Shown here piece after piece: positions 6,477 to 19,713 of a stretch of DNA of 20,004 nt. The DNA lies in the IMG/VR virus record IMGVR_UViG_3300024264_000206, positions 1 to 20,004 of that record; one strand, written 5' to 3'. The stretch's first letter is position 1; each line of letters begins with the position of its first letter. The notes under the pieces were generated by a model. The model did no database searches, was not told the DNA's origin, and was given only the letters and a program-made list of their open reading frames with translations. Source of the DNA: a virus. Position numbers and translations under genes: made by a program.

Positions 6477-9400
6477 ATGATTGTGAATAAAGAAAATACA
6501 ATACCATTAGTTGAGGAAACTAAGCCTGTCGTACAAGAAAGTGTTCAAGATACAACACAGGATAACTTGCAAAAAAAAGACAAGAAAGACCCAGCAGATC
6601 CTCCTAAAAAAAAGCTTGATAAATCAAAAGCAAAGCAATGGGTTATTGATTTATACAAGTCAAAAGGGATTGAAATAGATGACGCTGAAGCAACAAGATT
6701 TGCAGAGAATAAAAACATCAAATCAATAATCACTGATCAATACAGGTTGGCTAAGGTTAAAATTCCAAAACAAAAAGAATTAGATTCTTTATATAGTAGC
6801 TGGGAGATTGACATTGACCCTGTAGATGAAATCATTCAAAATTCTACTCTTTTAAACAATCCACCTTCACCAACAGATGAATTATTAACATCTGCTTCTT
6901 CTAACGTGGAAAAAAAAAATCCACTAACGACTTCTCAAAATCAGAGTACGGATTCGGATTCAAGTTCGGAAGATGGCAGTTCTTCATCGGCATACAAAGG
7001 GTTTTTTAATGGAGACAAAACTTATTCTGAAAACATAAACAATATTCCCGTAAGTGTTTTAGGTCTTGGAAGTGAAGATGCTATGCTGTCTTTAAACAAC
7101 ACTTTGAAGCAATATGGTGTTGATGTAAAAATGGGATCCCCTGACACAGATATGGATGGTATTACTATTACTAGGCCTGACGGGGAATCAATGTCTTTTA
7201 CAATATTTAGTGACATATACAAGGCTAGGCTTAAGATGGTTAATCCTGATCAAAATCCAGATGAATTACAAAAAGTAAGACATGCTGAAATGCTTAGTTT
7301 CATTAATGGATCAAAAAAAGAAAATCTAAGTTTTCAAAAAGGTATTTTTCAAAATGTAGACAAAACCACTTTGAGTGGTGCAGTATCAGACTACATGAAT
7401 TATGCTTTAACGCCTTCAACAGAAGATATTAACTTTATAATTAAAATGCTTCCTGGAAGAAAAAAATCTGTAGGCGAGTACTTTAATAAAGATGGTTCTT
7501 TTAAATATGAGTTATGGAAGTTAGATGTTGGTAGAGCTGATGCTGGGCTAAGTAAGCATAAATTAGATCAGTACAGAGATGATGAGTATGAGCAAGCCGC
7601 AACAAGGTCTAGAGATAATACTGCGACTAGAAAGCCTAAGATGATTAATTTTCCAAATCTTGATCCTGATAAAAAACTAAATGAAAAAGCAAAAAGCAGA
7701 TCAAGAAAAGAAGCTTTAAAAAAGATAAGTGATATATCAAGGTCTTTTAATGTAAAAAAAGAAGTAGCTTCCTCTAATTTAGGAAACGCATTAAGAGAGT
7801 CTGGAGCTTATCAAATGGTTGATTTAAATGATCCTGTTGCTATTTCTGATATTAGACAAGCTGGATTACTTCCTGGTGATTTGCCTATGGATCAAATTCT
7901 TATAAATGGATCACCTTCTTCTGTAAATGAAGTAAGCTCTATGCTTTATGATTACGAAACAATCAAAGCTATTCGCGCTGGTAAAATAAAAATAGATATA
8001 GGAGACCCTAAGACAGCAGGTTTGTTAGCTGATCAAGTTGCTCAAATTAAAGACTTAATTAGAACTCAAGAAGCTTTTGATAATGAAGGGGTTTTAGGAT
8101 TTGATAATGGATTCACCGATTGGCTTAATCAAGCACAAGAAACTGTAGAAGGTGGATTGACTGCTATTGGACTTTCTGCTTGGGAATTAGCCTCTAATGT
8201 TTCATATATTGGATATGACAGCTTAGTTGCAATGGGAGTTCCTAAAGCTGAAGCTCAAATGATAATGTACGGAAATACAGGTCTTCCAGGTGTCGCAAAT
8301 ATTGGAAGATTATTAGATCCTCAGCTTGTTAAACACGTTAGGGATGAATACCAGCCTGTATATGAAGGAGATATTTTAGATTCACAAAGTTTTGGAGAGG
8401 GTTTCTATAAAGCATCTACAGCTACTGCAAATTCTTTAGTGTATACGGGTGTTTTTATGTTAAATCCAGCTCTCGGATTAACCGCTACAGGATTAGGTAG
8501 TTATGGAGGAGATAGAGTTTACCAGAACCAAAGAGTAAACGAAATAAACGAAAAGAAAAAAATGGGCTTTTCTCTTAGTCCAGAAGAGCAACAGATGTTG
8601 AATCAATCAGGTTTTATGTCTAGGTTAAATTCATTAACTAAAGCTGGAGTTGAGGTTGGAGTTACCTCTTTGTTTACGTTTAGATATTTTAAAGGAGTAA
8701 AATCGGCGTCAAAATTTAATGGCCCAAAAACAGCTGAAAACGCAAAAAAAATAGCAGATCAATATGCTAAAAATGTTAGACAAACAATGGCTGGAAAATT
8801 ATCTCAAATGCTTGGTATTGAGAAAAAAGCTATTCTAGCAGAGCTGCCAGAAGAAAACCTTATTGCTTTAACTAATTATTATGTTGACATTGAATTTGGT
8901 TTGGATGTTTGGGATTTTGAAAAAGCAAAAAAATTAGTTAAAGAAACTTCCATTGTATCTGTTTTTAGCGGTTATACTATGGGGGTTGGAACTAAGTTGC
9001 ATCAAAATTCAAAAATCAAAAAAATAGGAGAGCAACAGATAAAAAACAACATTAATTTACCTGCGGAAAATGAAGCTATTGTTAATAAACTTAATATTGA
9101 TGCTCAGGTAAATCAAATTGAAAAGCAAGCAGAGCAAGGGTTAATTGATTTAGAAACCGTTAATGGATATCAGGATTTAAAAGACTTACAACTACAGGCT
9201 AACAACCAAGTAAATAAGTTCGAGGACATGAAAAATGACCTTGTTAAGAAGATGAGTGTGAACGAAAGGAATGAATTTTTAGATATTATAAGACAAATAG
9301 AGCAGCAAGACTCTAATATATCTTCTGAAGATAATTCAAATAATGTAAAAAAGAAAAGTCAAGAAAACATAGAAGCTCTTAAAATTAGAGGTAGAGAAAT

Positions 9401-12400
9401 ATTATCAAAGTATCCAAGCGATATGTCTTTTTATTTTGCAGATGCTCAAGTAAAATCTGAATACATAACTAAAGCTATGGAGGTTATGGGCAAGGAAAAG
9501 ACTGAAAAAGGAGAAAATAACTTTACTTTAAATAGTGATGATCCCGCTGTGTTTGATCGTGCTGCTCAACTACACACACAGGCTGTTGCTGACGGTATAG
9601 TAGAAGCAAGACAAAATGCTAATGCAGCTGAATACATCGGCCTTAATAATGCATCAGACTTTTACCAAGATATCACTAGGCAAGAATTAAACGACTGGAA
9701 TTTATCAAATGACATTTTAACCGTAAAGGATATGTTAAGTGCTCCAGAGCTTGATTTAACGGTTACAAAGCCAGTGGAAGATGTTGACGGAAGCAAAGAC
9801 TCTGAGTTTGAGGTTACAAAGGAAGGAGATGTTGTTGTTGCGACAACAAAATTAGAGAAGACTCAAAAACAAGTTAATCAAGAAAGAACAGGAACTATAG
9901 TAAGCAGAATAGAGTCTTTTAACTCTAACTCAGATTTCGCCAACGACTTACCTGCAAAACAATATGCAGAAGTTAAGGAGTTTTTTGAAAACGTTAAAAG
10001 CGGAAAAAAAGTTTCTTATGGTAGAATAGAATCTATATTAGACGCTCATGATTTAGCCCTTCAAATAAAATCTAACACTTTTGGGAAAATTAACGTAGGA
10101 GCTGATATTAAAGGAGTTTTAAAAGAAGATGGATCTTTAACTGAGAAGGGTTTAAAGCTTTACAATAGCCTAGCTCAAACAATGTCCGCTGGGATTGGTT
10201 TAAATACCATGACTATGGAGGGATTAACCTTAATAAGAGACACTCAAATAGGAGCTCCGTTACATAATTTAATCCAAGAAGGATTAAGATCTAGTGCGGA
10301 AGCACAGCAAAAAGCAGGTAATATAAAGTCTGGACACACTAGTTTGTATGAGGCTGAAGTTATTGCTTATAATAAACAAAATGGAACAAGCCACAGTAAA
10401 GACCCTAGAAGTTCTGTAGATTCATCATATGAAATGTCTATTCTTGGAATGCTTAAAAGAAAGACAGGGGAAAAAACAATGGATGGTCAAGATGTTGAGT
10501 TTGCTAGAGCAAAGAAACTAATACTTGAAGAGCTTGCTATAAGAAAAGCTGAATCTGAAGACACTTACAATGCCGTTCAAATAGCTAAAGGAGATAAGAA
10601 GGCTGCTATTGATAAATACAAAAAATATAAAGATGTAATTGATAGGTTAGGTGTTTCTGAAGCTACTTCTTTTGAAGATGTCTCATCAAAGGCGTTGCCG
10701 TTTAATTTAAACGCTATTAACAGGCTTTCAGAATCGATGCCTGGTCAAAGAGCTATTCAAAGAATAAATGATTTTGAAAAACATGAAGCATTTAATTTTG
10801 AAGAAGGCTCATACACACCTATATTTATGTCTAAATCAACAGATGGTATGGGCTTCAATGATTATTTTGGGCCACAGAATTTAGATGGAATTAATACTAA
10901 TAGCGGTAGAAAAGTAACTAGACCAGAAACTTTAGGAAATGATTTAAGATTAAATCCTGGAATGTATTGGGATAATGTTTATGCTCAATTAAACGGGATG
11001 GAAATGGAGATATCTGGAAAGAAAAACTTTCAGACTTTAGACAACTTATTAAACAATCCAACATTTTTAGACAGCTTTGAAGACGGTGCTTTAAAAGATG
11101 CTTTAATTTCCAACTTTAAAAAAAGGTCTGAAATGTGGAACAGAGAGGTTCGAGGCTCTAACTTAAAGGCAGTAGATATTGGTGATTCTAAAATTAAGGA
11201 CACGCAAAATAAAGCTATGAATGCCGCGTATGGTACAGTTAGTGCTATTTCTTTAGCAAGACTAACTCAACCAATGAGTCAGTTTATGAGTGCAACTTCA
11301 GGTAGTTATCCAATATTAAAAAATAAACAATCAAAAGCTTATTTAAGAAAAAGAGGGTTAAGTTTTTTTGGAGGTGTAGCAGGTTCTTTTAACATGAATA
11401 ATAAGGTTGGAAGGTTTTTTGGATATTTTGATAGCAAAGGAAAACTTGGTAACATATATGATAAGTCAAGAACAGGATTAAGAAATGCCTTAGCTTCTCA
11501 ATTAGCTATTGACAGAAATCAGTCTATGCCTGCTGAATATTATATAGATGCGCTTAGTCTTACAGATAAACAAGGTGAAGCTTTAAATTCTGTAGGTGGT
11601 CAATTAACTATAGACAGGGTTCTTGAGACTGTTAACAAGTCTAATGAAATGGCTTTGAATTTTATGTTAGCTAACTCAGATAAGGCTGCGGCAAATATTG
11701 CTTTTGAAGCTCATTATTTAGATTATAAACTTTCAAAAGGGGAGACTATAAACGACCTTGATGTTTTTTGGGAAAAAGAAAACGCTAATCCTGATTTAGA
11801 TGCTATAAAATATGCAGATCAAATTATTGATCGAACAATGCGCCAAAGTGATTCAGCTGGAGAGGCACAGATATATAACAGTGAAAAATCTAAAAACGGA
11901 ATGAGAATTCTTATGCCTTTTCAAAAATTTATATTAAATGCAAAAGCTGACTTTTCTGCTCAGTTAAGTATTCTACAAGATCCTAATATTTCTGAAATTC
12001 AAAAGCAAGACGCTAGAAGATTTATGAAAGGTAAAATGAATGAAATAGTTTCTTTTAACGCTATAAAATATGCAGGTAGTGTGGCAACATTAAAAGGGTT
12101 GTCAAGCTTATTAGCTTTAGGAATGGATGAGGATGATATTTATGAGAGTGGTGGAATAGATGGAGACATATCAAGACGACTAGGTATTAAGTCAAGTAAA
12201 GAAGATCTTGATGCAATGACGGCTACAATTAAAGGAGCAACAAGTCTTGAAGAAAGAAACGCGGCTCTATCTGCTTTATCTGGATTTAGAGAAATGAACG
12301 ACGTGGTTAAGGGGTTTGAGCAATACGCGATGAATTACGATAAAAAGTTTTCAATTAGTGACAATAAGAATATTATAAATCAAGTTTTTCAAGATGCTGG

Positions 12401-12908
12401 ATTTACCTTGAATCCTATTCCTACTACTGGTTTTATGAATGATTTAATGGCTTGGGGAGTAAATCACGTCTATGGAGAAGATATTCTTAGAGAATATAGC
12501 AGTAGAGATTTAACCTCAGAGGTAATGGACACAGACACATATATTGATGTTGTTGTAAAAAAAGCAGGTATGTTAGGTATAGCTTATGAGACTGTTGATA
12601 GATTTACCAGTGCAATTAGACTTAGAAAAAACGGAACGTTTATAATAAATCAAGGGGACTACAAGAATAAAGAGGTTTATTTGACTGCTCCTACTGATGC
12701 AATGAGAGAAAAGTTAGCTAATTCTGTTGACTTTCTATTTCAATTAAGGTGTCATGCTTTAATGAATCCAGTTGCTCCAAGAGCTGATTTAGATAAATAT
12801 GCAGACAGGCTAGAGAGAACAATTGAAAAGTATTTTACACAATCTACTCCTGATCAAAGAATGCAAAGAGTAATGGGAATGCAAGGGCCTCTACAAGAAG
12901 AAGATTAA
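6477..12908 (+). CDS. Giant internal virion/ejection protein, 2143 residues (T7 gp16-like by position)
   Basis: This is the largest gene in the window. The first 60 residues are K/D/P-rich and disordered, and residues 135-170 form a serine-rich linker. A helical hydrophobic area follows, with candidate membrane-interacting stretches at about 560-580 (GLTAIGLSAWELASNVSYIGY), 658-677 (VFMLNPALGLTATGLGSYGG) and 724-738 (VEVGVTSLFTFRYF). After a long charged coiled-coil-like region (about 870-1000), the C-terminal third is helical with further hydrophobic patches (ARLTQPMSQFMSATSG near 1594; VATLKGLSSLLALGMDEDD near 1868). I looked for a lytic transglycosylase or lysozyme motif and for the DxDxD motif of crAss-type virion RNA polymerases and saw neither. 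A huge helical protein at the end of the core-protein cassette fits an ejected channel protein, but its biochemical activity is unknown. Its stop overlaps the convergent nuclease gene. Confidence 0.55.
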   Translation: MIVNKENTIPLVEETKPVVQESVQDTTQDNLQKKDKKDPADPPKKKLDKSKAKQWVIDLYKSKGIEIDDAEATRFAENKNIKSIITDQYRLAKVKIPKQKELDSLYSSWEIDIDPVDEIIQNSTLLNNPPSPTDELLTSASSNVEKKNPLTTSQNQSTDSDSSSEDGSSSSAYKGFFNGDKTYSENINNIPVSVLGLGSEDAMLSLNNTLKQYGVDVKMGSPDTDMDGITITRPDGESMSFTIFSDIYKARLKMVNPDQNPDELQKVRHAEMLSFINGSKKENLSFQKGIFQNVDKTTLSGAVSDYMNYALTPSTEDINFIIKMLPGRKKSVGEYFNKDGSFKYELWKLDVGRADAGLSKHKLDQYRDDEYEQAATRSRDNTATRKPKMINFPNLDPDKKLNEKAKSRSRKEALKKISDISRSFNVKKEVASSNLGNALRESGAYQMVDLNDPVAISDIRQAGLLPGDLPMDQILINGSPSSVNEVSSMLYDYETIKAIRAGKIKIDIGDPKTAGLLADQVAQIKDLIRTQEAFDNEGVLGFDNGFTDWLNQAQETVEGGLTAIGLSAWELASNVSYIGYDSLVAMGVPKAEAQMIMYGNTGLPGVANIGRLLDPQLVKHVRDEYQPVYEGDILDSQSFGEGFYKASTATANSLVYTGVFMLNPALGLTATGLGSYGGDRVYQNQRVNEINEKKKMGFSLSPEEQQMLNQSGFMSRLNSLTKAGVEVGVTSLFTFRYFKGVKSASKFNGPKTAENAKKIADQYAKNVRQTMAGKLSQMLGIEKKAILAELPEENLIALTNYYVDIEFGLDVWDFEKAKKLVKETSIVSVFSGYTMGVGTKLHQNSKIKKIGEQQIKNNINLPAENEAIVNKLNIDAQVNQIEKQAEQGLIDLETVNGYQDLKDLQLQANNQVNKFEDMKNDLVKKMSVNERNEFLDIIRQIEQQDSNISSEDNSNNVKKKSQENIEALKIRGREILSKYPSDMSFYFADAQVKSEYITKAMEVMGKEKTEKGENNFTLNSDDPAVFDRAAQLHTQAVADGIVEARQNANAAEYIGLNNASDFYQDITRQELNDWNLSNDILTVKDMLSAPELDLTVTKPVEDVDGSKDSEFEVTKEGDVVVATTKLEKTQKQVNQERTGTIVSRIESFNSNSDFANDLPAKQYAEVKEFFENVKSGKKVSYGRIESILDAHDLALQIKSNTFGKINVGADIKGVLKEDGSLTEKGLKLYNSLAQTMSAGIGLNTMTMEGLTLIRDTQIGAPLHNLIQEGLRSSAEAQQKAGNIKSGHTSLYEAEVIAYNKQNGTSHSKDPRSSVDSSYEMSILGMLKRKTGEKTMDGQDVEFARAKKLILEELAIRKAESEDTYNAVQIAKGDKKAAIDKYKKYKDVIDRLGVSEATSFEDVSSKALPFNLNAINRLSESMPGQRAIQRINDFEKHEAFNFEEGSYTPIFMSKSTDGMGFNDYFGPQNLDGINTNSGRKVTRPETLGNDLRLNPGMYWDNVYAQLNGMEMEISGKKNFQTLDNLLNNPTFLDSFEDGALKDALISNFKKRSEMWNREVRGSNLKAVDIGDSKIKDTQNKAMNAAYGTVSAISLARLTQPMSQFMSATSGSYPILKNKQSKAYLRKRGLSFFGGVAGSFNMNNKVGRFFGYFDSKGKLGNIYDKSRTGLRNALASQLAIDRNQSMPAEYYIDALSLTDKQGEALNSVGGQLTIDRVLETVNKSNEMALNFMLANSDKAAANIAFEAHYLDYKLSKGETINDLDVFWEKENANPDLDAIKYADQIIDRTMRQSDSAGEAQIYNSEKSKNGMRILMPFQKFILNAKADFSAQLSILQDPNISEIQKQDARRFMKGKMNEIVSFNAIKYAGSVATLKGLSSLLALGMDEDDIYESGGIDGDISRRLGIKSSKEDLDAMTATIKGATSLEERNAALSALSGFREMNDVVKGFEQYAMNYDKKFSISDNKNIINQVFQDAGFTLNPIPTTGFMNDLMAWGVNHVYGEDILREYSSRDLTSEVMDTDTYIDVVVKKAGMLGIAYETVDRFTSAIRLRKNGTFIINQGDYKNKEVYLTAPTDAMREKLANSVDFLFQLRCHALMNPVAPRADLDKYADRLERTIEKYFTQSTPDQRMQRVMGMQGPLQEED

Positions 12909-17212: not shown

Positions 17213-18979
17213 CTATATTTTTAATTTATTAAATTCTATATCTAATTCTTTGTTCTTTTGAAAGGGTGTTTTTGCTGAAGATATCCAATTTGTGTTATCC
17301 CATCTTGGGCCTCCATCAACCATTTCAGTGTATCTACCATTGTTTACATTCCAAAAGTAATTCACATCGGCTTGGTTCTCTCCAAGATTTGAAAACTTTA
17401 CTTTTAAAACCTTAACCTTGACAGTTCCTTGCTCGTAATCTCTATGAACAAGCAAACCATGAGGACTCATGTCATAAAACTCTCCTCCACCTTTCACATC
17501 ATAAAACGTAGGCTCAAAAACCTTTCCTTTATCTGTTTGTGGCTTAGTAGGGTGTGCTACAAGTATTACAATTACATCGTTTTTCTTACAGAAATTATCT
17601 ATCTTGTTTAAGTAGGCGTTTGTGTAATCATTAATACCAAGCTTAATAGATGATTTATCTTTAACTTTATTGTATGGGTCTATTACTAAGCACCTTATAC
17701 CCATTCTCTTTACAAGCTCCTCTCCTTTTTGTAAAACCCTTTCTAAGTCATAGCCGTCATCATAGTTTATAAAGAAAAAATTCTTATTGACATGATCAAC
17801 ACACTTTCTCCAGGACAACTCTTTTGTATCTTCATACTCGGGAGTTCTTCCATAATATTTCCTTACAAGTTTATCAACGTGTAGGTATTGAGGGTAATTT
17901 TCTGTTGAAGCATATGCTATCTTCCAATCATACATCATATTATATCCAACACACATTTGGTCAACAAAATCTGATTTACCACTAGATGGAAACCCAGTTA
18001 CAACCGTAAATTGCTTTGTATATGTTGAAAATATACCATCAAAACTTCTTAATCCAATTTTATAACCATTCTCAACCCCATTCTTATAAAAAGAATCTAA
18101 GTCAGAAGCCATGTCGTTAGCCCTTATGACATTTTCTATAGGGCATGGCACTGCATCATCTATGGTTTCCTTTAAGGCTTTTTTACCATACTTAATTAAG
18201 TATTCGTTAGCGTCTTTGCAATCTTTAAAGTTTACTAAAAAACATTTATCTGAACCAAATCTTCTGATAAATTCTTTTTTGCCATTTTCTCCAGCCTCGT
18301 CGGCGTCCAGTGCTAAGTATATTTTTTTCTTATCTTCAAAGTAAAAATAAAAATCAGTTAGGTAATCTAAATTGATTTGACCACTAGAATTAAAACCATT
18401 GGGAACACTTATTGTGTTCTTGATACCGCACTCATGATAAGACATTGCATCTATCTCTCCTTCTGTAATTACGCATTCATCTCTACTTATTATTGAATCA
18501 ATATTGTAGAACGTTTTTTGCGCTCCCTTATACATTTTAAAATTCTTTTCTGCATCTCTATATTTAATATTAATTAGCTTTCCTAAAACATAGTAATTAA
18601 AAAATATAGCATTTACTTTTGAGCCTACTTGTGGCATGTATTCAATTCCATTAGTAACCTTTAAATCTAACACTGTTTTTTCTGATATACCTCTTTTTAC
18701 AAACCAATCTATAACATTGTTACTTGTTTTCTTTTGAACAACTTGCTGAGGTTTTACATACTCAATTGAATTGCTGTTTTTTTGTAATTTATAGGTATGA
18801 AGCTGTAATACTTCTCCGCAATGCTGACAAGTACCCAGTCCCCTCTTCCAATCTAACATTAAACACTCTTGTGTTTTCTTTTTTCTTGAAGAAGAACATA
18901 CTGGGCATGTAGATTTCTTTTTATTAGTTGGTAATTTGTATTGATTAAATACATCTATTTCAAATTCTGTTTCCACCAT
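17213..18979 (-). CDS. Bifunctional DNA primase-helicase (T7 gp4/Twinkle type)
   Basis: This 588-residue protein has the domain order of T7 gp4 (566 residues). First comes a zinc-binding domain with C25-P-V-C28 and C51-Q-H-C54. Then comes a TOPRIM primase core with ITEGEIDAMS (E173) and YLALDADEAGENG (D225, D227). The RecA/DnaB-like helicase domain has Walker A GFPSSGKS (329-336), Walker B CLVIDP (D434), VILVAHPTKP (H476) and a candidate arginine finger in LLVHRDYEQG (R513). It would make primers and unwind the fork during phage DNA replication. All catalytic motifs look intact. It starts two bases after the replication-initiator gene, the usual partner that loads such a helicase, and ends in TAG two bases before the next ATG. 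The C-terminal tail (565-588) is short and charged. Confidence 0.93.
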   Translation of the reverse strand: MVETEFEIDVFNQYKLPTNKKKSTCPVCSSSRKKKTQECLMLDWKRGLGTCQHCGEVLQLHTYKLQKNSNSIEYVKPQQVVQKKTSNNVIDWFVKRGISEKTVLDLKVTNGIEYMPQVGSKVNAIFFNYYVLGKLINIKYRDAEKNFKMYKGAQKTFYNIDSIISRDECVITEGEIDAMSYHECGIKNTISVPNGFNSSGQINLDYLTDFYFYFEDKKKIYLALDADEAGENGKKEFIRRFGSDKCFLVNFKDCKDANEYLIKYGKKALKETIDDAVPCPIENVIRANDMASDLDSFYKNGVENGYKIGLRSFDGIFSTYTKQFTVVTGFPSSGKSDFVDQMCVGYNMMYDWKIAYASTENYPQYLHVDKLVRKYYGRTPEYEDTKELSWRKCVDHVNKNFFFINYDDGYDLERVLQKGEELVKRMGIRCLVIDPYNKVKDKSSIKLGINDYTNAYLNKIDNFCKKNDVIVILVAHPTKPQTDKGKVFEPTFYDVKGGGEFYDMSPHGLLVHRDYEQGTVKVKVLKVKFSNLGENQADVNYFWNVNNGRYTEMVDGGPRWDNTNWISSAKTPFQKNKELDIEFNKLKI

Positions 18980-18981
18980 AA

Positions 18982-19713
18982 TTATAATATTGTAAAGTCA
19001 AACCCTTTCTGATCAAACTTATTTTTATCTATCTCCATTTCTTCTTTAGTCCCGCTTTTAATTGCTTGACCTTTCCATTTCCACCTGCAATCTCCATTAC
19101 TTGTAGAAATTTTATTAGAGTTGTATCTCATCCAATTTACAAAATGACTTTTTAAATCTCTCATTGTAGATTTATTTTCATCAGTGATAGTAAGAACTTC
19201 TTCAAACTTATCAAGAGCAGAATCAATTTTAGATATAGATAAAGAAAAATGCATAGCAGTTGTTTCTTTCCACATAATATCTTTTTTACATTGCTCTATC
19301 ATTGTTTTATTATTTTCTTTATTTCTTATATTCTTAATTATCTCTGTCGTTTGCGTGTCATCTGTTTGTCGTTTGCTTGTCGCTTTTCTTTTCTTCTTAA
19401 CCTCATCTACTTGATAACTATCATAGTTTAAGATAGTTACCTTTGTATACTTGTTTGTCGTTTGCGTGTCTATTTCTCCTGTTTTTACTAATCTTTTAAG
19501 AGACGTTCTTAGCTGTCTTACAGGTATATTTAAGTCATTAGAAAGCCTGGTCAAAGAGGTTATATATTCTCCTCTTTTGACAGATTTACCCATGAATCGA
19601 CAATTGTCGTAACAAGCGTTAAGAAGTAAGTGTATAAATAAATGCTTGGTATTTGTGTCTTTATACCATTCCCAATCTAGTATCGATCTGTGAAGTTTTA
19701 TAAATCCTTTCAT
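18982..19713 (-). CDS. Phage replication initiator/replisome organiser with winged-helix domain
   Basis: The N terminus MKGFIKLHRSILDWEWYKD followed by HLFIHLLLNA and RGEYITSLTRLSNDL is characteristic of phage replication-initiation proteins found in Bacteroidetes and Firmicutes phages. Residues about 45-100 form a winged helix (NIPVRQLRTSLKRLVKTGEI, wing TNKYTKVTILNYDSYQ). A K/T/Q/D-rich linker (105-130) joins it to a C-terminal helical domain containing LKSHFVNWMRYN, probably the helicase-contact part. It would bind the origin and load the primase-helicase encoded just downstream. The linker- and wing-coding DNA contains three near-identical 15-bp repeats, so the origin may lie inside the gene, as in lambda O. 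The start is fixed by the conserved N-terminal motif even though it overlaps the upstream gene by 53 nt. Confidence 0.82.
   Translation of the reverse strand: MKGFIKLHRSILDWEWYKDTNTKHLFIHLLLNACYDNCRFMGKSVKRGEYITSLTRLSNDLNIPVRQLRTSLKRLVKTGEIDTQTTNKYTKVTILNYDSYQVDEVKKKRKATSKRQTDDTQTTEIIKNIRNKENNKTMIEQCKKDIMWKETTAMHFSLSISKIDSALDKFEEVLTITDENKSTMRDLKSHFVNWMRYNSNKISTSNGDCRWKWKGQAIKSGTKEEMEIDKNKFDQKGFDFTIL
19345..19470. repeat. Candidate origin iterons inside the initiator gene
   Basis: There are three copies of TGTCGTTTGCGTGTC: 19345-19359 (exact), 19367-19381 (TGTCGTTTGCTTGTC, one change) and 19456-19470 (exact). Copies 2 and 3 also share an upstream TGTT. Start-to-start spacings are 22 and 89 nt, roughly one and four units of 22. 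Copies 1 and 3 encode DTQTT, whereas copy 2 is in another reading frame and encodes part of ATSKRQT, so the similarity is at the DNA level. Position in the initiator gene suggests binding sites for its product. Confidence 0.6.
19415..19439. repeat. A/T-rich inverted repeat with phased ATAGTT units, next to the iterons
   Basis: TAACTATC (19415-19422) and GATAGTTA (19432-19439) are perfect 8-bp inverted arms around a 9-bp spacer. The spacer holds a further ATAGTT (19423-19428) exactly 10 bp, one helical turn, before the one in the right arm (19433-19438). It lies between the second and third origin-like repeats. It may be a second protein-binding site or part of an unwinding element; it may also be chance in A/T-rich DNA. 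Confidence 0.35.

Follow-up and report, generated by a model that had tools for sequence, protein, structure and literature searches.

In phage lambda, the initiator iterons lie in the middle of gene O, between the parts encoding the DNA-binding and C-terminal portions of the protein, and are followed by an AT-rich region, each iteron being an inverted repeat (PMC7466680); the lambda record annotates four 18-bp iterons whose starts are 20-24 bp apart. The oriL of phage SPP1, located in gene 38, combines direct repeats with an AT-rich element inside the initiator gene, and oriR lies about 13 kb away (PMC6316719). In plasmid pSK41, the initiator has a DnaD-like winged-helix N-terminal domain, the origin is inside rep, and the protein can do without the central linker that the origin encodes (PMC5703833). 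A putative ori with iterons has also been described in the replication gene fhv_0043 of Francisella phage KIRK (PMC7924643). An origin within the initiator gene is, as a concept, already established by lambda, SPP1 and pSK41.

Here, we analyzed a 20,004-nucleotide stretch of DNA from a marine phage (hereafter the window; IMGVR_UViG_3300024264_000206, positions 1 to 20,004; one strand, 5' to 3') in which the gene for a DnaD-like winged-helix replication initiator contains direct repeats. These repeats are very probably the iterons of the initiator encoded by the same gene and, together with the adjacent AT-rich tract, constitute an in-gene replication origin, the origin activity of the array being proposed from its layout and by analogy with the systems described above.

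Table 1 Features of the initiator locus in the window.
Feature	Position in window	Strand	Position in gene	Basis or remark
Primase/helicase, Toprim + DnaB/RecA-type ATPase	17213..18979	-		phrog_239 E 8.6e-86; Toprim_2 E 2.1e-13
DnaD-like winged-helix replication initiator, 243 aa	18982..19713	-		phrog_2514 (residues 1-140) E 3.3e-27; PF25200 (C-terminal part) E 3.5e-12
AT-rich, A-rich tract, candidate unwinding element	19294..19344	-		Directly 3' of the array
Linker array GACAAGCAAAC GACAAACAGAT GACACGCAAAC GACA(GAGATAA)	19338..19381	-	nt 333-376	11-bp period
Wing cluster, two 11-bp units GACACGCAAAC GACAAACAAGT	19449..19470	-	nt 244-265	Contains the copy at 19456-19470
Predicted recognition helix codons, residues 65-78	19480..19521	-		Helix H65-78, AlphaFold2 model mb7e325cda3ce
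Arg66 codon, residue predicting unit bases 1-2	19516..19518	-	nt 196-198	Start of predicted recognition helix

The repeats and the gene that contains them

The AlphaFold2 model of the initiator (mean pLDDT 75) consists of an N-terminal winged helix, with wing strands at residues 81-85 and 90-94, a disordered linker modelled at low confidence, and a helical C-terminal domain; the C-terminal part corresponds to Pfam DUF7833. A fold search with the winged helix returned CAP at Z 10 and the plasmid Rep initiators 4pt7 and 4pql at Z 8.4, a score that does not exceed those of unrelated winged helices such as CAP, and when solved structures were searched by sequence, using the window alignment, the only match was at chance level. 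By its annotation, the initiator would serve as a helicase loader. The primase/helicase gene starts 2 bp past the initiator stop, in keeping with the initial annotation, which had the helicase gene following at once. The nearest known phages, as judged from the helicase and one structural protein, infect Cellulophaga, Tenacibaculum and Flavobacterium; therefore, a host in the Bacteroidota is likely, and the initial assignment to a Bacteroidetes phage agrees with these relationships. Elsewhere in the window, gene direction and GC skew both flip at 12.9 kb, with late genes on the plus strand and early genes on the minus strand, and an ORF of 2143 aa (6477-12908) without a clear family match lies among the structural genes.

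The 15-mer originally reported in the gene, TGTCGTTTGCGTGTC, was found at the coordinates given for it, with exact copies at 19345-19359 and 19456-19470 and a copy with one mismatch at 19367-19381. When up to three mismatches were allowed, there were 4 matches compared to 0.18 expected from window shuffles. On the coding (minus) strand, the 15-mer reads GACACGCAAACGACA and starts at gene nt 244, 333 and 355, in codon phases 0, 2 (the copy with one mismatch) and 0, respectively. It had been argued that protein conservation could not account for copies in different phases, and synonymous recoding bears this out: three copies within one mismatch, as present in the gene, were obtained in none of 4,000 trials (2,000 with window codon usage and 2,000 permuting synonymous codons), the maximum being two.

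The true repeat unit is 11 bp long, GACAmrCAAAC on the coding strand, and the units are non-palindromic direct repeats, located at gene nt 333, 344 and 355, with a half unit at 366, and at 244 and 255 in the wing. This unit accounts for the 22-bp spacing and, 11 not being a multiple of 3, for the change of frame. The linker array includes the 15-mer copies at 19345 and 19367, and in one relative (L013) it assumes the regular form GACACGCAAAC GACAAACAAAC GACACGCAAAC GACA. The constrained segment continues beyond the array and reaches about nt 420 in the AT-rich tract. Thus, the initial placement of the repeats in the wing and linker stands, with the unit redefined and the segment extended. The protein sequence of the linker (ATSKRQTDDTQTT) is largely a by-product of the 11-bp repeat read in three frames. 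The coding strand of the AT-rich tract, both in the window and at the corresponding family position, is rich in A and contains numerous AAT/TAA triplets.

This arrangement resembles that of lambda in that the initiator iterons are in the middle of the gene, with an AT-rich region next to them, and in that extra lambda iterons likewise only add linker residues. It differs in the unit, an 18-bp inverted repeat in lambda compared to an 11-bp direct repeat here, and in the gene downstream, which encodes a P-type loader in lambda and a primase/helicase here. The window initiator matched the O-like profile phrog_345 weakly (E 1.5e-06), but lambda O itself did not match the winged-helix profile of the family. 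Membership in the lambda O family is supported neither by the unit nor by the profile; the initial description as lambda-O style holds for the layout. The likeness to SPP1, which is compared by its published description, consists in direct repeats and an AT-rich element inside the initiator gene, and a second array 10-11.5 kb away in relatives is a candidate counterpart of the second SPP1 site. The RepA_N initiators of pSK41 and pTZ2162 share the winged helix, the origin within rep and the origin-encoded linker, and differ in their Rep boxes and sequence family; no RepA_N domain was among the Pfam matches listed for the window initiator, and the resemblance is one of fold only. Lactococcal TP901-1 Rep and r1t ORF11 are also phage replication genes with repeats in mid-gene, but their top repeat lag is 15 bp and they do not match the family profile convincingly. 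KIRK fhv_0043, set beside the window gene by description, shares the iterons in a replication gene, its origin being putative.

Conservation of the array in near relatives and across the family

The array is kept in all 15 near relatives (L001-L015), at 59-100% identity. In two of these (L003 and L004), A is replaced by G at motif position 9 in all three copies, a change that is silent in two copies and replaces Lys with Arg in the middle one; the same substitution is present in 2 of the 3 copies in L002. Among ten near relatives, synonymous differences numbered 39 at the iteron codons and 21 in the AT-rich tract, the amino-acid-matched expectations being 201.7 and 125.6, respectively. Synonymous change across the array is therefore five-fold below expectation, and amino-acid differences in the array and AT-rich region rank among the highest in the gene. 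The search for in-gene repeats and reduced synonymous variation in homologous initiator genes, suggested in the initial annotation, thus yielded both. No in-gene array is present in L016 and L017, the closest of the linker-less relatives; the array is therefore dispensable in this lineage.

The family was collected by scanning viral contigs, together with the genomes of bacteria and archaea, with the profile and by adding phage records, and was reduced to 120 representatives at 80% identity, with very diverse hosts; several of the contigs are fragments, and Staphylococcus phage PVL enters the analysis by its initiator locus only (L041). The commonest top self-similarity lag was 11 (67/120), with lag 22 on top in another 11, and the identity at lag 11 exceeded that in synonymous shuffles at p <= 0.05 in 92 of the 120 representatives and did not in 28. 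The mean identity within the linker was 0.594 at lag 11, 0.522 at lag 22 and 0.473 at lag 33, compared to about 0.30-0.35 at most other lags; the family wing carries a 12-bp pair. Downstream of the array, a tract at +75 to +120 after the domain is A-rich and 73-76% AT. Codon choice flips between the two elements: Asn is encoded by AAT at a frequency of 0.38 within the array, 0.76 in the AT tract and 0.65 elsewhere. With the in-gene array retained in relatives, its copies changing together and an 11-bp array recurring in the corresponding position in most of the family, the initial proposal of iterons inside the gene is well supported. In a genome-wide scan, the cultured Cellulophaga phage phi18:3 (71 kb; initiator gp006, with GGCA in place of GACA in its units) and Vibrio phage 1.116.O (36 kb) showed no lag-11 array beyond the in-gene one at the threshold used. 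The record of L039 (PP511318.1, Dulem virus 31) is filed as Microviridae, yet is 35.8 kb long with tailed-phage-type genes, so that its taxonomy looks wrong.

Residue 66 and the first two bases of the unit

With the units placed in register, APC-corrected mutual information was highest, among the winged-helix columns tested, for residue 66 paired with unit positions 1 and 2. The units start with GA in 29 of the 31 genes with Arg at this residue, with AA in 33/34 genes with Gln and with GG in 17/18 genes with Lys (79/83 in total). Codon 66 is outside both repeat clusters. On the best tree, built without column 66, residue 66 changes at least 28 times, and sister pairs that differ at this residue differ in the unit as predicted, with 0 opposed in the single-residue tests; well-supported branches alone give 3-5 independent pairs, by themselves too few for significance. 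A weaker covariation links base 4 of the unit (A or C) to residues 53-54, close to the beginning of the helix that precedes the recognition helix.

The rule emerged post hoc from a large number of pairs, which makes held-out sets important. With the rule fixed beforehand, the unit phase set without positions 1-2 and only new genes at <80% identity considered, the rule was correct in 8 of 9 genes from held-out Bacillota and Bacteroidota genomes and in 57 of 65 from further viral contigs (shuffled labels: mean 25.3, maximum 39); these sets come from the same protein family and partly from the same collections. By our reading, some of the misses are phase errors or represent an Arg65-Lys66 class with GCAC units. 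Binding of the array by the initiator is thus supported by the covariation of residue 66 in the training and held-out sets. Arg and Lys usually prefer G, and Gln prefers A.

These observations suggest a mechanism in which the winged-helix domain would bind successive 11-bp units, and the GA of GACA would be recognized by Arg66, located where the recognition helix begins. Since each unit spans about one helical turn, the bound initiators would be positioned on one face of the DNA. The assembled initiators may then melt the adjacent A/T tract, and the C-terminal domain may recruit the primase/helicase encoded next door.

The distal array and alternative explanations

The same units also form a second array in relatives, where they occupy the 3' end of an ORF of about 49 aa that immediately precedes a GroEL-like gene; the window stops short of this region. 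In 12 aligned loci, of which about 10 are independent (L215/L233 and L230/L231 are near-identical), successive units are offset by 11 bp and another CGACA, the fourth, is located 97 bp from the first; the sequence between the units and the fourth CGACA is not conserved. The distance between the distal array and the initiator is 10-11.5 kb in five genomes (G016, G017, G012, G021 and G820). These units outside the gene are of the Arg66 class, and the fourth copy is non-coding. The initiators of L016, L017 and L122 are without the linker array, and all three retain the distal array, which in the L016 genome has the same 97-bp spacing. The repeats can therefore be separated, as a DNA element, from the protein, which disfavours linker structure as their cause. 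The module had been described as self-contained; the array is indeed within the gene, but the description is incomplete because relatives bear a second array elsewhere. By analogy, the distal array is probably a second initiator-bound site comparable to oriR of SPP1; it may just as well act in transcription of the GroEL-like gene.

The ~49-aa ORF is conserved in L224-L234, L215 and L202-L208 (G004, G005), where the fourth distal unit is followed, in most cases, by TATATAAAAAG. Clusters of GCGACA-type words occur at L202:953-1560 and L206:1915-2520 (another small ORF upstream of the initiator, in two linker-less relatives), and GCGACA is the most clustered 6-mer in G004. Such clusters were considered as a relocated origin in L016 and L017 and set aside, the regular 11-bp array before the GroEL-like gene being the better candidate. 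The L122 contig (C66 of G021), which carries both the initiator and the distal array, is in a metagenome bin labelled Maricaulis and is probably misbinned or a prophage.

The GC skew of the window does not switch at the array, although the initial annotation had proposed looking for a switch at 19.4 kb; the switch is at about 13 kb and coincides with the change in gene direction. In phi18:3, there is likewise no switch at the in-gene array and the minimum is at 13 kb. Skew was discarded as an origin marker since it tracks gene direction in both the window and phi18:3. The lack of support from skew for an origin at 19.4 kb would fit a role of the array in which the initiator binds it for other ends, as an operator of early transcription or a site of handcuffing or incompatibility control, with the working origin elsewhere, e.g. 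in the distal array. The linker-less relatives, which retain the distal array only, and the regulatory look of TATATAAAAAG, which abuts the fourth distal unit just before the GroEL-like gene, point in the same direction. However, the array lies in the gene and is followed by a synonymously constrained AT-rich tract, a layout known from in-gene origins that have been characterised (lambda, PMC7466680; SPP1 oriL, PMC6316719; pSK41, PMC5703833), and phi18:3 and Vibrio phage 1.116.O have the in-gene array only, at the scan threshold; we regard a purely regulatory role as unlikely.

The binding protein could also be a different one, of host or phage origin, with residue 66 covarying for another reason, given that covariation is indirect evidence of binding. 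But it is residue 66, in the predicted recognition helix, that has the top mutual information with unit positions 1-2, and the residue-base pairs fit the usual preferences, so that a different binding protein appears very improbable. The least credible explanation is that the repeats are a consequence of the protein, i.e. of a flexible linker rich in Thr, Gln, Asn and Lys and a conserved wing motif encoded in similar codons. The linker composition does recur across the family, and the wing contains conserved residues, but the differing codon phases, the recoding trials, the synonymous shuffles, the opposite codon choice in the array and the AT tract, and the recurrence of these units outside the gene, with one of the copies being non-coding, refute protein sequence as the full explanation. 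Thus, iterons of the self-encoded initiator within an in-gene origin remain the preferred reading.

More broadly, we lean towards the view that a large class of phage initiators, spread over multiple phyla, has its origin within the gene in the form of an 11-bp array, with the unit set by residue 66 and the linker shaped by the DNA, and that the initiator of the marine group also acts at a strictly spaced distal site, able to substitute for an in-gene origin that has been lost. We found no description of the 11-bp unit or the residue-66 rule in a literature search that did not cover Weigel and Seitz 2006 and older lactococcal papers. The new parts are the family-wide unit, the residue-base rule and the distal site, their priority being uncertain; the advance is in the breadth, the code and the distal site rather than in the concept. 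The recurrent odd linker (RQTNDKQTTNK-like) is explained as a constraint at the DNA level, and nature provides examples of phages that have lost the array from the gene and retain it elsewhere. In most uncultured phages, the origin has yet to be located and is not revealed by GC skew, whereas here an origin can be proposed from one gene, and the residue-to-base rule makes its specificity directly testable. If this view is correct, the origins of phages and their mutual compatibility would be readable from sequence.
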